Positions 3,096-19,287 of a DNA stretch of 20,345 bases are shown one piece after another. The notes beneath the pieces were generated by a model. That model was not told where the DNA came from and ran no database searches. It worked only from the letters and a program-made list of their open reading frames with translations. Location: IMG/VR virus record IMGVR_UViG_3300025168_000889, positions 1 through 20,345 of that record. One strand, 5' to 3'. The DNA is from a virus. Made by a program: the position numbers and the translations under genes. Each line of letters opens with the position of its first letter. The stretch's first letter is position 1.

Positions 3096-6000
3096 ATGCC
3101 ACTAGGGAAATGGATAGTTGATAAATTAATTGCTGAAGATAAAAATATTAAAACAATAGTAGCAATTTATCCTGGGAGGTTCCAACCAATGGGAGCTCAT
3201 CACGCAAAAGCATATAAGTGGTTGGATAAAAAGTTCGACGATGTTTATGTTGCAACAAGTGGAAAAGTAGAAGTACCTAAATCCCCCTTTAGTTTTACAG
3301 AAAAAAGAAAAATCATAAATTCACATGGTATAAAAAAAGTAGTACAGGTAAAGAATCCGTATAAGGCAACTGAGATCCTAAATAAGTATGATCCTGAAAC
3401 TACAGCAGCAGTTTTTATGGTTGGGGAAAAAGACGCTAGTCGCTTAGGTGGTAAGTTCTTTAGACCTTGGAAGGGTAAAGCAGAAGTTGGTTATAAGGAC
3501 GGTGCATATACTATTATAGCTCCTCATGTTTCATTGAAGGTACCCGGCTATGGTGAAATGAGTGGAACTCAGATTAGAAAAGCCTTGGGTGATCCAAAAC
3601 TAGACGATAAGCAAAAGACTGGAGTATTTAAAGCTATTTTTGGTCACACTAAGAATTATTCTATGATAGTTAAAAAGTTATTAAATCTAAGTGAAATGAT
3701 GGAATCGTTTTTATCTAATGTAGATATCAACAAGATATTAAAAGAAGCTTCTAATACAGCAGCATCGGGTAAACAATTAGTAGACGATGGTCCTGCTATA
3801 ACATTTGCTACATTTAAAGGATATGAATCATCCGGCGATTTTTATGCTAAACAAATTGGATGGGAAGTTGTTAATTATATTCTTGGTGGAGCTAAAGAGG
3901 TAAAAATAATACCAGATCGTACTGTAGATGCTGTCACATTTTTCCCAGCTGGGGTAGCTGGTAAATCATCTCCAATAAATAAAACGGATCTTAAAGCAAG
4001 ACCAGCATATAAAATGTGGGCTAAAAAGATGTCTAAAATAGCTCAGCAGGTTGGTTATAAATTTCTTAATTTTATGGGAGCAGAGGCCGCCAAAGAGAAA
4101 AAGACTTTTGATAAAGCAAAGATCGATGAGCCGGATAAAGAAGTTAAAAATACTTTAAATTTAGCAGAAAGATTAAACGATCCTGATATATGGAAACCTA
4201 TACTAGAAAAAATAATGCTACCAGTAGAAATTGGTGATACAGTTTACATGGGTAAATTTAAAAATAAAAAGGTTGTTGTTAAAACTATAGGTTGGAATGA
4301 AAAGGGGGATTTGTTAATTAATGGTAAGTCTGCCATGCGAATGAGAATACCCCCCAAACCAAATATTTTTGACGGAGTTAAACAAGAAACAGAATTGGAT
4401 GAATGTATTATAGTTGCTAAGATGTTTGATGATGATATGGTTCTTGGTAAAAATAGAGATAGAAATTACAAACCCAGATTAAAGATAGTTAGAGATCGGA
4501 CTTCATATGGAATTGAAACTTGTCTTATTGTTGATGAAGATACTGATTGGGTAGAAGGGATGAATGACACAGGAATAGGTTTGGTTAACTCTGCACTGTT
4601 TGTCAAAAGAGATGAAAAGGATTATGATAAAGCTAAAAAGAAAATGGCTCCTTCTAAAGATGGGGCAAGAGTTAGAGAAGCTCTTGGTAAAGGAAGCTTA
4701 AAGGATGCAGTCAAGTCTTTAATTGTATATCATGATGGAATTAAAGGTCACACTACTATAGGAAATGGAAAAAAATTAGTTACTATAGAAAATACTAGTA
4801 GATCTAAGCCAATTGTTAGAATTAAAGATCTAAATAAAGAACCCATAGTAAGAACAAACCATGGGCTGGAACATACAGAGGCCGGCTATCAAGATGGCCC
4901 AGACAAATTGTCTTCGGAATTAAGATTAATAAATGCTTTAAATGTAACACATAAAACATCAAATTGGGAGAATTTATTTCCCAACTTTTATAAGCATACC
5001 CAAGATAAGGGACCTAAATTTGATCTTGTAAGAGCTCAAAATAAATTATGGACTTCTAGTCAAGTGGCTATGAATCTCAATAAAAAAGAAATAATACTAT
5101 ATCTAGTTCCAGAGCAAGTTAAATTTCTTGGATTTGAAAATAACCTACCTAAGGGATATGATCCAAAGATAAAAGTAAAGATAGTTACCTATGATAAAAA
5201 AGTATACAAAAATGAATCAATCATAACAGAGGGTGGCGCTTATGGTCATATGGCTCATCCATTTGACGATAGAGGATTAACCTTTGGGGATTTTAAAAAT
5301 ATTATTGATTTATCCCTTCAGGGAAAATTAAATTTAGAAAGTGGAGCCACAGAAAAAACTGATGGACAGAATCTTTTTATTACATGGTCAGATGGAAAGC
5401 TTAAGGCAGCTAGGAATACTGGTGATGTCAAACGTGGTGGTATGGATATTAAAGGAGTTGCTTTAAAATTTAAAGATCGTGGTAACATTGAAAAAGCTTT
5501 TAATTATGCAATGAATGATCTATCTAAATCTATTGGTGGTTTAAGTGATCCTCAAAAAGATAAGATATTTGATAATGGTAATAATTGGGTTAACATGGAA
5601 ATTATGTATCCCGCCTCAGCAAATGTTATTGTATATGATGCACCCCACCTACAATTCCACAATGTTTTAAAGTATAAAGATGGCAAAGCAATTGGTGCAG
5701 TATCGGATGGAGCCAGAATTTTAGCCGGTATGATAAAACAGATTAATGCTAATGTTCAAAAGAACTTTAAAGTTATCGGTCCACAAATACTCAAGGTTAA
5801 TCCCAATCAAGACTTTTCAGCTAAGGCCCCACTTTTTAAGTCGAAGATAAATAAATTAAAATCGGAATTTGGATTATCAGATTCATCTACGCTTACTGAA
5901 TATCATCAAGCCTGGTGGGAGTCTTATGTCGATAAGAATTTCCCAGGAATAGAAAATACAATAAAAATGGGCTTAGTAAAACGGTGGGCATTTAACGATA

Positions 6001-6422
6001 AGAGTTATAGGTTAAATGGAAAAAATATTCCGGATAAAGAATTACTGGACAAAATAAAAAATACAGATAAAATAAAAGTTGCTGTTCAAGTAAAAAAGAA
6101 TATGCTACCATTTGAAAAGATATTTTTTGAATTGGGAGCCGAAGTACTAAAGAATGTTGAAGGCTTTTTAGCAGCTAACCCAGACAAAGCAGTACAGGCT
6201 ATTAGAAAGCAAGTTGCTCAAGCTATAAAGTTTGTTAGAAAAGGTGGTGATCTTAAAAAGTTAAACAAGCTTAAAGATCAACTGGATAAAATCCAATCTA
6301 TGGGTGGATTTGAAAAAATAATACCATCAGAAGGTTTAGTATTTATCTATAAGGGTAATACTTATAAGTTGACGGGCATTTTTGCTCCTATCAATCAAAT
6401 TACCGGTTTAATGAATTTTTAA
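3096..6422 (+). CDS. Multidomain protein: HxGH nucleotidyltransferase + Ntn-hydrolase-like + ligase-like (KTDG) domains
   Basis: This 1108-residue protein is read from ATG 3096 (AGGA at 3085-3088, spacing 7). Residues 19-165 match the HxGH nucleotidyltransferase fold: YPGRFQPMGAHHAKAY near the N-terminus and SGTQIRKAL at 156-164 in place of the ISSTxxR motif. This is the family of NMN and phosphopantetheine adenylyltransferases. Residues 218-436 have no recognised enzyme; 377-418 (IGDTVYMGKFKNKKVVVK onward) resembles a short module I recall from other T4-like phage proteins. Residues 437-700 look like a cysteine Ntn hydrolase of the C45/TANGO2/choloylglycine type: Cys437, GKNRDR (451-456), GMNDTGIGL (488-496) and TNH (587-589). 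Residues 713-1108 contain EKTDG with Lys754, then RNTGD and NWVNMEIMYP, resembling the covalent nucleotidyltransferase core of RNA/DNA ligases. Substrates are unknown. The motifs are visible; domain names are by recognition, and the ligase-like one is least certain. Confidence 0.7.
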   Translation: MPLGKWIVDKLIAEDKNIKTIVAIYPGRFQPMGAHHAKAYKWLDKKFDDVYVATSGKVEVPKSPFSFTEKRKIINSHGIKKVVQVKNPYKATEILNKYDPETTAAVFMVGEKDASRLGGKFFRPWKGKAEVGYKDGAYTIIAPHVSLKVPGYGEMSGTQIRKALGDPKLDDKQKTGVFKAIFGHTKNYSMIVKKLLNLSEMMESFLSNVDINKILKEASNTAASGKQLVDDGPAITFATFKGYESSGDFYAKQIGWEVVNYILGGAKEVKIIPDRTVDAVTFFPAGVAGKSSPINKTDLKARPAYKMWAKKMSKIAQQVGYKFLNFMGAEAAKEKKTFDKAKIDEPDKEVKNTLNLAERLNDPDIWKPILEKIMLPVEIGDTVYMGKFKNKKVVVKTIGWNEKGDLLINGKSAMRMRIPPKPNIFDGVKQETELDECIIVAKMFDDDMVLGKNRDRNYKPRLKIVRDRTSYGIETCLIVDEDTDWVEGMNDTGIGLVNSALFVKRDEKDYDKAKKKMAPSKDGARVREALGKGSLKDAVKSLIVYHDGIKGHTTIGNGKKLVTIENTSRSKPIVRIKDLNKEPIVRTNHGLEHTEAGYQDGPDKLSSELRLINALNVTHKTSNWENLFPNFYKHTQDKGPKFDLVRAQNKLWTSSQVAMNLNKKEIILYLVPEQVKFLGFENNLPKGYDPKIKVKIVTYDKKVYKNESIITEGGAYGHMAHPFDDRGLTFGDFKNIIDLSLQGKLNLESGATEKTDGQNLFITWSDGKLKAARNTGDVKRGGMDIKGVALKFKDRGNIEKAFNYAMNDLSKSIGGLSDPQKDKIFDNGNNWVNMEIMYPASANVIVYDAPHLQFHNVLKYKDGKAIGAVSDGARILAGMIKQINANVQKNFKVIGPQILKVNPNQDFSAKAPLFKSKINKLKSEFGLSDSSTLTEYHQAWWESYVDKNFPGIENTIKMGLVKRWAFNDKSYRLNGKNIPDKELLDKIKNTDKIKVAVQVKKNMLPFEKIFFELGAEVLKNVEGFLAANPDKAVQAIRKQVAQAIKFVRKGGDLKKLNKLKDQLDKIQSMGGFEKIIPSEGLVFIYKGNTYKLTGIFAPINQITGLMNF

Positions 6423-6452: not shown

Positions 6453-7022
6453 ATGAAAAAAAATATAAAAGAATCTAACGTCCAAAGAATGAGAAATATT
6501 GTTATGGGAAACCATAACGACAAGACTAGAATTCAGTCCGGATGGAAAAAATATAAAAGTCAAGAAAGAGTCGAAGGTGATGTTTGGGAAGAGCGTGGGA
6601 AAACTTGGACAATTAAAAACGGCATTACGCAAAACATTACAAAAATGGATAAAATACGTAAATTATCAATGACTCCTATATTCTGTCCCGTATCAGGAAA
6701 ACCTTTAAAAACTGTTCATGATAAGTTTTGTTATAGGAAATATAAAATGGGTTGGGATGCTTGGATTGAACAAGAGACAAAGAAAAAAATCGCCGGAACA
6801 TGGGAACAGGATGTAAAAAAGAGAAACTTAAAAAGTAACTCTGCTTGGTTAGAAGATATTAAACAGGAATTCGAAGAATGGTTGGTAGAAGATCCGTCTA
6901 GAAAATATATAACCGAAAATGGCCAAATTGAAGATTGGTCTGGTGGTGTAAATAGAGAAGAAACTAAAAAAGAATTTTACGAAAAAGCAAAAGAATTTGA
7001 AAAAGGTTTAAAGGAAGAATAA
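6453..7022 (+). CDS. Conserved-type phage protein with degenerate zinc-ribbon-like motif
   Basis: This 189-residue protein is rich in Lys, Glu and Trp. At about residues 77-105 it has FCPVSGKPLKTVHDKFCYRKY followed by a GWDAWIEQE segment. I recall similar unnamed proteins of marine T4-like phages in which the first part is CPVCG; here the second cysteine is Ser, so a four-ligand zinc site cannot form from these residues alone. The rest is predicted helical with a charged C-terminus and shows no signal peptide or membrane segment. It has no Shine-Dalgarno and sits right behind a promoter-like motif. The next gene begins 3 bases after its stop. Function unknown; it is probably expressed late with the small genes that follow. 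Confidence 0.75.
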   Translation: MKKNIKESNVQRMRNIVMGNHNDKTRIQSGWKKYKSQERVEGDVWEERGKTWTIKNGITQNITKMDKIRKLSMTPIFCPVSGKPLKTVHDKFCYRKYKMGWDAWIEQETKKKIAGTWEQDVKKRNLKSNSAWLEDIKQEFEEWLVEDPSRKYITENGQIEDWSGGVNREETKKEFYEKAKEFEKGLKEE

Positions 7023-8289: not shown

Positions 8290-8688
8290 ATGAAGTGGTT
8301 ATTTTTATTTTTTTTGATTATTCCAAATTTAAGTTTTTCACAAGTTGATACTTGCACTGTTTATAAGGACTTGTATAAGACTGCAAAAATATTGAATTTA
8401 AAATACCAGGAAAAAATATCTAAACAAGATAGTATAATATCAGATCAAGATTTTGTAGTATCTATAAAACAACAAATTATATTTCAAAAAGATTTTATGC
8501 TAAAAAATGATAGCTTGCAATTTGATCTATATAGCAAACAGATAAAATTACTAAATGAAAATCTTTCTATTTATGAAAAAGAAAGAGCTAAAGAAGGAAA
8601 ATGGCATAAGAGGTTTATGCCTGGTTTTATATTTGGAATAGTTGGAACGGTTTTATTAATACATTCTGTTGATTATACCTTACCTTAA
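8290..8688 (+). CDS. Secreted coiled-coil protein with Q-rule signal peptide and C-terminal membrane helix (spanin candidate)
   Basis: The 132 residues begin with a classic signal peptide (MKWLFLFFLIIPNLSFS) with predicted cleavage before Gln18 (SFS|QVD). Then comes a helical, Asp/Lys/Gln-rich region (about 30-100, with KQDSII and LQFDLYSKQIKLLNENL) and a C-terminal membrane helix (about 109-126, FMPGFIFGIVGTVLLIHSV). Exported N-terminus plus C-terminal anchor in the inner membrane is the layout of a unimolecular spanin, except that no lipobox is present: Cys22 is not preceded by a [LVI][AST][GA] triplet at the cleavage site. Gln right after the signal peptidase I site is typical of Bacteroidetes secreted proteins. 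The start has no clear Shine-Dalgarno. A role in outer-membrane disruption is inferred from topology and position. Confidence 0.6.
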   Translation: MKWLFLFFLIIPNLSFSQVDTCTVYKDLYKTAKILNLKYQEKISKQDSIISDQDFVVSIKQQIIFQKDFMLKNDSLQFDLYSKQIKLLNENLSIYEKERAKEGKWHKRFMPGFIFGIVGTVLLIHSVDYTLP

Positions 8689-13685: not shown

Positions 13686-13967
13686 ATGATACATCAGTTA
13701 AAAAGACCGGTTTTGAGTTGGCCAGAATGGTCAAAGAAGCCAGAAAATAAAAAATTAATAAAAGAAAATATTCATGCAGCAAAAAGAAAATATAATAATG
13801 ATTTATATATTGCTGAAAATTATAATAGATATTTAATGTATATGATGGGTTTGATTTCTACTCCCGGTGTTTCTGCTCCAAGTGGTGGTGGCCAAACAAA
13901 AGCAGGAATTAGTCATTATATGATTGGACAGTCAACTGTAGATTCAGACGAATTTGTAGTAAGCTAA
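13686..13967 (+). CDS. Small phage protein of unknown function
   Basis: The 93 residues have an N-terminal PVLSWPEWSKKPENKK segment, a helical Lys/Asn/Tyr-rich middle with YNRYLMYMMGLIS, and a Gly/Ser-rich tail (STPGVSAPSGGGQTKAG) ending in ISHYMIGQS. The MYMMGLIS stretch is too short for a membrane helix. TAGGAA is 7 bases before ATG. It lies between the 42-residue gene and a fibre-like small gene. No family recognised. Confidence 0.65.
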   Translation: MIHQLKRPVLSWPEWSKKPENKKLIKENIHAAKRKYNNDLYIAENYNRYLMYMMGLISTPGVSAPSGGGQTKAGISHYMIGQSTVDSDEFVVS

Positions 13968-14560: not shown

Positions 14561-15226
14561 ATGAACAAGCAACTTTTAATCGATTATACTCCATTTAATA
14601 TAACTCCTCAGATGATAAAAGAATCTGAAGAAAGAAATGGTGGCAAAGTAATCGTACAGGGAGTACTTCAAAGAGCCGGCGCTAAAAACCAGAATGGTCG
14701 GATTTACCCAAAAGACATTCTAATAAGAGAAGTTAAAAGGTATAACGACCATCAAGTTAAAGAGCATAGGGCTTTGGGAGAATTAGATCATCCTGAAAGT
14801 TCCGTTGTAAACTTATCCAACGTTTCTCATAATGTATTAGAAACTTGGTTTGATGGCGATGATGTTGTTGGAAAAGTTGAAATATTAGGAACTCCCAGTG
14901 GTAATATACTTAAAGAACTTTTAAAGTCTGGTATAAAACTAGGTATTAGTTCTAGAGGTCTGGGAAGTGTAAAACCATTATACGAGGATGGCGATCACAC
15001 TGTAGAGGTTCAACCCGACTTTGAATTAATATGTTGGGACTTTGTTTCTAATCCTTCTACACAAGGAGCTTTTATGAGACCAATGAATGAATCTGTTGGC
15101 AATAAGCTACCAGTAAATAAATATGATACGGTAAATAGAATTATAACCGATATTATTTGTGAAATGACTGGGGTTTGCAAAATTCCAACTCACAAGAAAT
15201 CTAATTGTAAATGTGGAGGACACTAA
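14561..15226 (+). CDS. 21: Prohead core protease (gp21-like)
   Basis: This 221-residue protein is about the length of T4 gp21 (212). It shows QNGRIYP (44-50), the His-bearing block ALGELDHPESSVVNLSNVSH (71-90, His76 the likely catalytic His), GKVEILGTPSG (104-114), the nucleophile block LGISSRGLGSV (127-137, Ser130/Ser131) and SNPSTQGAFMRP (163-174). This family U9-type serine protease sits in the prohead core, activates itself and cuts scaffold, capsid and internal proteins after (L/I)xE before DNA entry. The C-terminus is unusual: Cys200, Cys206, then CKCGGH, a Cys/His-rich tail that could bind metal. AGGA (14552-14555) lies across the upstream stop. Its stop overlaps the next start. Confidence 0.93.
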   Translation: MNKQLLIDYTPFNITPQMIKESEERNGGKVIVQGVLQRAGAKNQNGRIYPKDILIREVKRYNDHQVKEHRALGELDHPESSVVNLSNVSHNVLETWFDGDDVVGKVEILGTPSGNILKELLKSGIKLGISSRGLGSVKPLYEDGDHTVEVQPDFELICWDFVSNPSTQGAFMRPMNESVGNKLPVNKYDTVNRIITDIICEMTGVCKIPTHKKSNCKCGGH

Positions 15227-15543: not shown

Positions 15544-16113
15544 ATGAAACTAAAAAACATACTTAAAGAGGCCAAAAGGCAACAATGGACAGAACAAGAT
15601 AAGGGGACTTTTTTGAAAGCCGTTTCTAAATTTAATGAATATGGGTCTAATATCTACAAAAGCGAAACCATTAAAGAATCTTTAAAAACTATTACAGAGT
15701 TAATACAAAAAGCCGAATCTTTTACTATTAATGAAACGGAAGATTGGTTTGATGAAATCTCTGTTAAAAGAGATATGAAGCAATTAAGAGAAGCTTCAAA
15801 TCTATTTGGCAAAACTGTTAATGAGATGGAAGTTATGCAACAACGTTTAGAATCTTTATATGAAGATATGGGTTATAAGCTTGGTAAATATTTTGAAATA
15901 TCTGAAAAAGTAGATAATATTTCTGATAAAGAAGCTGCTACTGATTTTGATGATCTAGAAGATAAAGACGTTGACAACGATGGTGACACAGACGATTCTG
16001 ATGAATATTTACATCATAAACTTGGTGTAGTTGCTAAGAAAACTGAAGGATATGCTTCTGCATTTTCACGAATGAAATCTACAGGTAATTTAAGTAAATT
16101 TAAAAAAATGTAA
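15544..16113 (+). CDS. Head-region core-type protein with EF-hand-like loop
   Basis: This 189-residue protein is helical and highly charged. Its N-terminus, MKLKNILKEAKRQQ, has the look of the short capsid-targeting peptides of T4 internal proteins, which end in a gp21 site such as IAE|A; here LKE|A at residues 8-10. Residues 142-153 (DVDNDGDTDDSD) form an EF-hand or dockerin-like calcium loop with Asp at positions 1, 3, 5, 7, 9 and 12, followed by EYLHHKLG. Many marine T4-like phage proteins carry a DxDNDGD stretch. AGGA at 15533-15536 precedes ATG by 7 bases. It is likely an internal or core protein; family name unknown. Confidence 0.65.
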   Translation: MKLKNILKEAKRQQWTEQDKGTFLKAVSKFNEYGSNIYKSETIKESLKTITELIQKAESFTINETEDWFDEISVKRDMKQLREASNLFGKTVNEMEVMQQRLESLYEDMGYKLGKYFEISEKVDNISDKEAATDFDDLEDKDVDNDGDTDDSDEYLHHKLGVVAKKTEGYASAFSRMKSTGNLSKFKKM

Positions 16114-17619: not shown

Positions 17620-19287
17620 ATGTCAAACATTTCTAATTTATTAAGTGATGCTGGTTCCTCTTATAAAAATCAAATCAATGAAACTCGAGGTTTGGTAAAT
17701 AAGTGGGATAAAACAGGTCTTCTTGAAGGAATGGACCAAGATTATGATAAATCTGGTATGGCTGTTCTTTTGGAGAATCAAGCTCGTCAATTGATTGATG
17801 AAGCTTCTTCAACAGGGACTGCTACAAATTCTGAAGAATGGTCGGGCGTAGCTCTTCCACTTGTAAGAAGAATCTTTGCTGAAATTGCAGCAAAAGATTT
17901 TGTATCTGTTCAACCAATGAATTTACCATCAGGACTAGTTTTCTATCTTGATTTTAAATATGGAACCACCACCGCTGACGAGGGAAGATTTTCTGGCGAT
18001 ATGTTCGGAAACACTTCTGCGTCAACTGATCCAAACGGCGGTCTTTATGGAGACGGTAGATGGGCATATTCCATCAAAGATAATTCTGTATATACTACGT
18101 TAACTACTGTTACCACTGCATCTTGGAAAGAGATCGGATTCAACTCTGCTCTATCTTCTTCAATTGCAGGAGGTGGTGATAGCGACGGAAATAATACTTT
18201 TAAAATATCTTTTCCTCTATCTATACTAACTAACTCTGATAATGCAGGTGTTAAAGGCTGGACAATGACATCGTCTAACTTTAGTGCTGCTAACAACATT
18301 AGTATGTATAACTACGTTTCTGATACAATACAAACAGCAGGAAGTAATAATCCAATTTTTGGATCAGATCTTTCTGGAGCAGCTTCTGCTTCTATCTTTG
18401 TATTAGGAGAAGGCGTTGTAGGTCCTAGTGCTAGCCCTGAACCTGTAACCGTAAATTATGGTAAACAGCCTACAGATATTTCGAGAGGTGATTTCGAAGA
18501 TACATCTGGCACAGGTACAGATATCAGTATTCCGGAAGTTAACGTACAAATGCACTCTGAACCAATTGTTGCTAAGACACGAAAATTGAAAGCAGTCTGG
18601 TCTCCAGAATTTGCTCAAGATTTAAATGCTTATCATTCAATTGATGCAGAAGCAGAATTAACTTCAATGCTTTCTGAATACATCTCAATGGAGATTGATT
18701 TGGAGATCTTGGACATGCTTATCCAAAACGCAGTAACTACTGAATATTGGTCAGCTACACCAGGAGAAACATTGAATGCTGCAGGAACTGGATTTGATGC
18801 TGGTAACTCTGCTGAAGCTTACAATCAAGGAACTTGGTTCCAAACGATTGGTACTAAGGTTCAAAAAGTATCTAACAAAATCCATGCTAGAACTCTTAGA
18901 GGTGGCGCTAACTTCTTGGTAACTTCACCAGACGTTGCAACTATCATAGAGTCTATTCCTGGATATGCTGCTGATACTGACGGTGGAGCAATGGGAACAC
19001 AAGGATTTGCAATGGGAGTACAAAAAGTAGGTTCGCTAAATAGCAGATTTACAGTGTACAAAAACCCATACATGCAAAGGAATGTTATCCTTATGGGATT
19101 CCGTGGAACTCAATTCTTGGAAACTGGAGCGGTTTACGCACCATATATTCCATTGATTATGACTCCTCTGGTATACGATCCTACTAACTTTACACCACGT
19201 AAAGGAGTAATGACTCGATATGCTAAGAAGATCGTACGTCCTGAATTCTATGGCAAGATCAATATTAAAGGTTTAAACAGAATTTAA
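17620..19287 (+). CDS. 23: Major capsid protein (gp23-like)
   Basis: At 555 residues it is close to T4 gp23 (521). Recognisable blocks are LVRRIFAEIAAKDFVSVQPM (81-100), the YGDGRWAYS region, IPEVNVQMHSEPIVAKTRKL (about 304-323) with AVWSPEFAQDLNAYHSIDAE after it, MLSEYISMEIDLEIL, FLVTSPDVATIIESIPGY (about 431-448) and the closing MTRYAKKIVRPEFYGKI. It forms the hexamers of the head shell. N-terminal processing by gp21 is likely at LIDE61|A62, close to T4's Glu65-Ala66. AGGAGA (17606-17611) gives a strong ribosome site, and a terminator follows 27 bases after the stop. No separate vertex protein gp24 is seen next to it. Confidence 0.97.
   Translation: MSNISNLLSDAGSSYKNQINETRGLVNKWDKTGLLEGMDQDYDKSGMAVLLENQARQLIDEASSTGTATNSEEWSGVALPLVRRIFAEIAAKDFVSVQPMNLPSGLVFYLDFKYGTTTADEGRFSGDMFGNTSASTDPNGGLYGDGRWAYSIKDNSVYTTLTTVTTASWKEIGFNSALSSSIAGGGDSDGNNTFKISFPLSILTNSDNAGVKGWTMTSSNFSAANNISMYNYVSDTIQTAGSNNPIFGSDLSGAASASIFVLGEGVVGPSASPEPVTVNYGKQPTDISRGDFEDTSGTGTDISIPEVNVQMHSEPIVAKTRKLKAVWSPEFAQDLNAYHSIDAEAELTSMLSEYISMEIDLEILDMLIQNAVTTEYWSATPGETLNAAGTGFDAGNSAEAYNQGTWFQTIGTKVQKVSNKIHARTLRGGANFLVTSPDVATIIESIPGYAADTDGGAMGTQGFAMGVQKVGSLNSRFTVYKNPYMQRNVILMGFRGTQFLETGAVYAPYIPLIMTPLVYDPTNFTPRKGVMTRYAKKIVRPEFYGKINIKGLNRI

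Follow-up and report, generated by a model that had tools for sequence, protein, structure and literature searches.

Prohead-protease-type joints between shuffled enzyme modules in a large protein of a T4-like phage

Introduction

Why are several enzyme-like modules joined in one phage protein? The question is raised by a gene (3096..6422, + strand, as are its modules and sites and the gp21 and major capsid protein genes) for a protein of 1108 residues in IMG/VR record IMGVR_UViG_3300025168_000889. The record, complete and 20,345 bp long, comes from a marine T4-like phage and is called the window below, at its full length. An original prediction, made from this DNA, recognised three enzyme-like domains in the protein and suggested that they could act together on one nucleotide-derived modification. 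We find five modules, whose order is shuffled between phages and whose joints resemble sites of a prohead protease. The protein is probably a capsid-targeted polyprotein, which would be cut by gp21 into separate enzymes, one of the cuts exposing the nucleophile of an N-terminal-nucleophile (Ntn) hydrolase, and be ejected with the DNA.

In T4, the prohead protease gp21 cuts after L/I-X-E, and capsid-targeting sequences are N-terminal propeptides of 10-19 residues that end in this same motif (PMC9026906). Polyvalent proteins of phages and conjugative elements are large, with 2 to 15 domains and varied enzymes, and are thought to be delivered with DNA (PMC5512222).

Results

Five modules in one open frame

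The frame is open from 3096 to 6422 without any stop, as first described. Module borders were taken from profiles built in this analysis and searched across 253 loci. Five modules were found rather than three: a nucleotidyltransferase (NT), MID, a small KOW-like beta module, a cysteine Ntn hydrolase and a ligase-like module (LIG). Residues 218-436 split into MID and the KOW-like module. The three folds originally named (adenylyltransferase, Ntn, ligase) were essentially right.

Cleavage-type motifs at the joints

Site conservation was counted in 54 distinct full-length homologues. Residues 1-14, MPLGKWIVDKLIAE (3096..3137), form a capsid-targeting-like peptide that ends LIAE/D, where the slash marks the predicted cut. 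At E14 [IL]xE is kept in 51 of the 54, and the N-terminal pattern M.LG.WLA.QIL.E in 53. The same peptide, e.g. ESLGQWLANQILLVE, recurs directly before LIG (GGAYGHM) in 24/54, with 1 match elsewhere, and a standalone LIG gene in LR756500 starts MKFLKSYEEFLNENLILE/GGSYGHL. Most simply, proteins once packaged separately would have been fused and have retained their N-terminal peptides.

Two further joints carry [IL]xE in all 54 homologues, and they sit in otherwise variable linkers. One is E217, with the predicted cut ILKE/A (3744..3746), whose surroundings are otherwise hardly conserved. The other is E712, with the predicted cut IITE/GGAYGHM (5229..5231), always followed by G (54/54) and lying in a segment, residues 700-716, that is disordered in the structure model. 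A possible second site near the first of these is E200 (LSE/M, 3693-3695; [IL]xE in 51/54), and E371 (ILE/K, 4206..4208) is a possible cut before the KOW-like module, the motif being present in 3 of the 4 sequences aligned there.

Density was examined in 34 representatives below 60% identity, with a composition-preserving shuffle of each segment. The motif [IL]xE was 3.7-fold denser outside than inside domains; for control motifs ([IL]x then D, K, N, Q or S, and ExI/L) the ratio was 0.76-1.11. Linkers held 261 copies against 169.6 in shuffles (z +7.8), and domains 93 against 159.7 (z -5.9). Within 30 residues upstream, [ILV]xE was present for 33/33 LIG modules (18.0 expected) and 20/20 MID modules (11.0 expected). 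From the enrichment in linkers and the depletion in domains we therefore conclude that selection maintains the motif at joints and keeps it out of the modules.

The same motif precedes the Ntn cysteine

The cysteine Ntn-hydrolase module (residues 437-704, 4404..5207) was assigned by motifs, a PF03417 match and a fold match. The domain proposed here is supported by its set C...KNRDR...RTNHG, kept in 7/7 sequences. PF03417 matched one of these 7 members (E 1.2e-4), and the structural match to the isopenicillin N acyltransferase precursor 2x1c is weak (E 0.012, prob 0.97), in a low-confidence region of the model. A query with the single sequence matched contig L002 only, and an alignment query reached standalone phage forms. 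No credible match was obtained with the Ntn profile against PDB sequences, nor was any bacterial relative found with the Ntn alignment in a scan of genome contigs. Most likely, the module hydrolyses some amide.

Ntn hydrolases require a free N-terminal nucleophile. The catalytic Cys437 is invariant in the Ntn set, and would be N-terminal only if the chain is cut at E436. At this place (E436/C437, 4401..4406) a cut LDE/C that exposes the cysteine is predicted, as [ILV]xE directly precedes the catalytic Cys in all Ntn copies that were found, both those in fusions and those standing alone. Fused copies read TELDE/C in the window, NELDE/C in L002, KEIDE/C in L171 and RKVDE/C in the L099 group. Standalone genes start with a short peptide of the kind M..LINE/C and read LINE/C (L088, L091), LLNE/C (L090), MINE/C (L092) or FLNE/C (MA9V-1).

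The most serious competitor of the proposed cut by gp21 is that the protein is packaged and cut, but that the Ntn module exposes its cysteine itself, autocatalytically, the preceding E being no gp21 site. We hold this to be unlikely, though it deserves attention: precursor Ntn hydrolases, isopenicillin N acyltransferase among them, usually mature by cutting themselves, and the nearest solved structure found here, 2x1c, is such a precursor. However, autoprocessing alone would not demand a match to the prohead protease motif, and the three residues ahead of the Cys are [ILV]xE in all cases, the short standalone propeptides included. Moreover, phages with a standalone Ntn gene have neighbouring proteins with the same kind of N-terminal site.

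Modules are shuffled and found as separate genes

Among full-length relatives, the profile search gave 50 of order NT-MID-LIG and 31 NT-MID-KOW-LIG; 36 relatives have the order LIG-NT. The orders that differ between phages also include NT-LIG, KOW-NT-MID-LIG and NTN-NT-MID-LIG. LIG and NT were each confirmed at > 500 loci of the viral collection, among the matches listed. Relatives reach 2,045 residues, with extra modules of the P-loop kinase (AAA_33 or zeta-like), PolyA_pol/CCA-adding-like, HD and zinc protease types.

On this comparison the Ntn module is an optional cassette and an exception among relatives. L003 and L004, 85% identical in the ligase part, are without exactly residues 429-708. 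L002 has the arrangement of the window, and in L171, L106, L098, L099 and L119 the Ntn module stands before NT. The search for domains as separate genes, proposed with the original prediction, was successful: standalone LIG and Ntn genes exist in phages, the latter in Chryseobacterium phages MA9V-1 and MA9V-2 and in contigs L088-L092.

These observations bear on the idea, offered originally, of a cytoplasmic multi-enzyme protein that stays whole and makes or transfers a nucleotide-derived group. NT and LIG do occur together in most relatives (NT-MID-LIG, NT-LIG, LIG-NT), and both handle nucleotides. Yet the order is inverted in the 36 LIG-NT relatives, the targeting peptide is duplicated, standalone forms have their own N-terminal peptide, L/I-x-E is conserved in variable linkers, and the chain is disordered at E712. 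We consider a chain that stays whole improbable. Shuffled order, standalone modules and joints of the prohead-protease type point to co-packaging followed by separation, and do not support the proposal of joint action on one modification.

Several relatives have architectures of their own. L226:2261-7168 encodes a polyprotein of 1636 residues with a canonical FHKGH NTase, MID, KOW-like, PolyA_pol/CCA-adding-like, AAA_33 kinase and HD modules and L/I-x-E between modules, a set that looks like an RNA-end repair kit. L099:1371-6254 and L119:1455-6233 (about 1.6 k residues) begin with a KOW-like module and a P-loop kinase, which are followed by Ntn, NT, MID and LIG; in both, LLLM/GG precedes LIG where L/I-x-E is usual. 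Where the window has a short linker, L005:5992-9549 has another cassette of ~290 residues (~344-636), with a weak Glyoxalase_2 match and a stretch HEAGIHATH. In L084 (LR756508) a ParB-like N-terminal stretch (ILDGHHRW) stands ahead of a canonical FHRGH NTase in one frame. Finally, Pelagibacter phage HTVC008M (L085, 4673-7079) has a ligase-like protein (KWDGAPA), a KOW-like protein and a kinase as separate adjacent genes, and its ligase-like and kinase genes start with short L/I-x-E peptides (MYNDLLVE/ and MIPFILKE/).

Nucleotidyltransferase and ligase-like modules

The NT module (residues 16-195, GRFQPMGAHH ... MSGTQIR, 3141..3680) was assigned by PF01467 and fold search. PF01467 matches the window sequence at E 8.5e-6 with 20.1 bits, just below the 21-bit cut-off, and its relatives above it, with up to 42 bits. 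Fold matches in the PDB are nicotinamide and nicotinic acid mononucleotide (NMN/NaMN) adenylyltransferases and phosphopantetheine adenylyltransferases (PPAT), with prob 1.00. An HxGH nucleotidyltransferase had been announced: the fold stood, and the literal HxGH did not, as the window reads G-A-H-H within GRFQPMGAHH. Among relatives, GxHH is found in 84 proteins and HxGH in 67. His and Gly seem exchanged in one NT clade, and this may be a compensated active-site change. Most likely, the module is an adenylyltransferase of the NMN/NaMN/PPAT type, and the supply of nicotinamide adenine dinucleotide, one of the functions considered earlier, would fit its fold.

The LIG module (residues 713-1108, 5232..6419) is an RNA-ligase-like nucleotidyltransferase with a helical insert, assigned by motifs and fold search. 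It has motifs I (KxDG), III, IV and V of the ATP-dependent RNA ligases, which belong to the covalent nucleotidyltransferases. The ligase-like domain proposed around Lys754 (motif I, 5355-5357) was borne out, EKxDGQ, R773, E835, E1079-G1080 and K1091 being invariant in 56/56 sequences. Its model has a mean predicted local distance difference test (pLDDT) of 90.4. RNA ligases, together with a related putative ligase, take the first 17 places among the PDB fold matches (best E 3.3e-3, prob 0.97), led by fungal tRNA ligase, T4 RNA ligase 1 and archaeal RNA ligases (E 3e-3 to 1e-2); RNA ligases are also among the viral fold matches. TM-scores are low because of the helical insert. LIG shares motifs I, III, IV and V and the core fold with T4 RNA ligases 1 and 2 and the archaeal and fungal RNA ligases; unlike them, it has a large helical insert between motifs III and IV and is fused to other modules. 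No family match was found for LIG in Pfam or PHROGs, nor any credible match of its profile to PDB sequences. The RNA-ligase reading is likely, and LIG most likely seals or adenylylates RNA ends, e.g. of tRNA cut by host defence. Among the functions considered earlier, RNA repair would fit this module best. The named functions are most secure as folds.

The MID module (residues 219-335, 3750..4100) was delimited by profile search, and no known family was found for it in the family scan. In the model of residues 1-720, from whose alignment the standalone Ntn rows were left out, confidence is low for MID and Ntn (mean pLDDT 61). The KOW-like module, PVEIGDTVYMGKFKNKKVVVKTI (residues 375-424, 4218..4367), also delimited by profile search, is part of a separate gene in HTVC008M. 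A search of the PDB with the whole protein sequence gave no credible match (TIM21 and similar chance matches). The family scan found no end-healing kinase or phosphatase in the window protein; relatives carry AAA_33 kinase, HD and PolyA_pol modules.

Could the enzyme folds be relics in a head-core or scaffold-type protein, which gp21 sites serve only to clear from the head? The T4 core proteins gp22 and gp67 are indeed cut into fragments by gp21 (PMC9026906), and in the clade of the window the HxGH of the NTase is changed to GxHH. The invariant ligase positions and the conserved Ntn set speak against this, as does the depletion of [IL]xE inside domains, by which the modules are spared from cutting. 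Decayed enzymes are thus a poor account of the protein. An assembly join or chimera, conceivable for a 20-kb metagenomic contig with an Ntn cassette rarely seen at this position, can practically be dismissed, as the independent contig L002 has the identical five-module order and the five loci with Ntn before NT bear the module in other polyproteins.

Genomic neighbourhood

The order of genes in the window is gp46-like C-terminus, S74 tail fibre, polyprotein gene, terminase gp17, portal gp20, protease gp21, scaffold-like protein and major capsid protein. The polyprotein gene also lies near gp17, gp20, gp21, scaffold and major capsid protein genes in Microcystis phage Mel-JY01, where it encodes an NT-LIG version of 639 residues. 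The gp21-type prohead protease (14561..15226; phrog_207, E 1.1e-55) is the presumed processing enzyme. In the major capsid protein (17620..19287; phrog_138), a presumptive maturation site read from sequence, LIDE61/ASSTG, is similar to the polyprotein joints.

Immediately downstream of the polyprotein gene, the open reading frame (ORF) 6453-7022 encodes a conserved neighbour of 189 residues with the N-terminus MKKNIKE/S. Proteins in the corresponding position of Mel-JY01 (L083:9897-10535) and of LR756508 (L084:5563 onwards) seem related to it, with paired cysteines. Two head-region ORFs, 15544-16113 (MKLKNILKE/AK) and 13686-13967 (KKLIKE/N), have L/I-x-E near the N-terminus and are possibly packaged too. 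The ORF 8290-8688 has a signal-like N-terminus, MKWLFLFFLIIPNLSFSQ, typical of Bacteroidetes proteins, which is a hint at the host.

Discussion

Comparison with known systems

The T4 internal proteins IPI, IPII and IPIII and Alt are, like the window protein, encoded by late head-region genes and have a short N-terminal peptide of the targeting type ending in L/I-x-E; processing by gp21 and ejection with DNA are presumed in common (PMC9026906). As in a T4-type internal head protein, the propeptide falls within 10-19 residues and a gp21-type protease is encoded by the same phage. The T4 proteins, however, give one mature product each, whereas the family of the window protein has several enzymes per chain, internal sites, and a targeting peptide that is sometimes repeated internally.

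With its five modules the window protein is multidomain, as the polyvalent proteins are (Iyer et al. 2017). The domains of the latter are released by embedded peptidases (PMC5512222), whereas the joints of the window protein match the prohead protease. No peptidase domain was found in it by the family scan, and we do not file it as a polyvalent protein. The word "prohead" appears in PMC5512222 within the reference list alone, and "NTN" is absent.

Nucleotidyltransferases have been met in virions, which gives packaging independent support by analogy. In purified virions of S-SM1 others detected T4-GC190, a putative cytidylyltransferase (PMC3037559), and there are reports of NMNAT-like or cytidylyltransferase proteins in virions of S-CREM2 (ORF154) and other cyanophages (PMC10665884). 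Like the NT module they belong to the HxGH superfamily, and the S-SM1 protein, which starts MKKFSAFLNE/AERSF, has an LNE/A-type N-terminal peptide. Unlike the window protein, they are encoded by a separate gene, belong to a different NTase family and have no Ntn or ligase module on the chain. The NT profile did not match the sister cyanophage protein of S-WAM1 nor the HTVC008M proteins, and so we treat the cyanophage NTase and the HTVC008M proteins as analogues.

Like isopenicillin N acyltransferase and other PF03417 members, the phage Ntn module would have its Cys N-terminal after a cut, and has conserved KNRDR and RTNHG motifs; it differs from the PF03417 type in having the Cys after [ILV]xE, a shorter propeptide and KNRDR in place of the GRNxD type. 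A literature search, with subscription papers mostly outside its scope, found nothing on an Ntn hydrolase together with a prohead. Internal proteins of the T4 type and polyvalent proteins have been described before; the combination in this protein, shuffled enzyme modules with joints of the prohead-protease type and one such site at an Ntn nucleophile, was likewise not found in the literature covered.

A proposed packaged and processed polyprotein

Several points weigh against a polyprotein cut in the head. L/I-x-E is a short motif, present in uncut proteins as well; the terminase of the window has nine. Linkers tend to be E-rich (factor 1.39), for which the shuffle test controls. At E14 the following residue is frequently a charged one (E or D), whereas A/S/G are usual. 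The fold matches of LIG are weak by E-value and TM-score. Finally, the S-SM1 NTase is of another HxGH family, an analogue rather than an orthologue.

Taking both sides together, we infer the following course. The N-terminal peptide of 14 residues would act like a T4 capsid-targeting sequence and bring the chain into the prohead core. There the gp21 encoded in the same window would cut after L/I-x-E in the linkers, so that the NTase, MID, KOW-like, Ntn and ligase-like parts would be released inside the head. The cut LDE436/C437 would free the catalytic cysteine of the Ntn module, by which the head protease would double as its activator. Once separated, the enzymes would be ejected with the DNA, reach the next host cell and be active as infection begins.

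About evenly balanced, in our judgement, is the wider proposal that polyproteins packaged in the capsid serve many aquatic T4-like phages as exchangeable enzyme kits, whose modules are parted by the prohead protease. On this view the protease, by cutting directly before the catalytic Cys, would also activate a packaged Ntn hydrolase, and capsid maturation would be coupled to zymogen activation of an injected enzyme. If this is true, a large part of the giant "hypothetical" or "cytidyltransferase-like" proteins of aquatic T4-like phages would become readable as lists of injected enzymes, with module boundaries predictable from a three-residue code. The idea of T4 internal proteins would extend from single proteins to shuffled multi-enzyme cargo, which in some relatives would include RNA-repair-type enzymes, and an N-terminal-nucleophile enzyme would be seen to be activated in a new way. 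Which cargo T4-like phages inject at time zero would then become a directly testable question, e.g. in Microcystis phage Mel-JY01.

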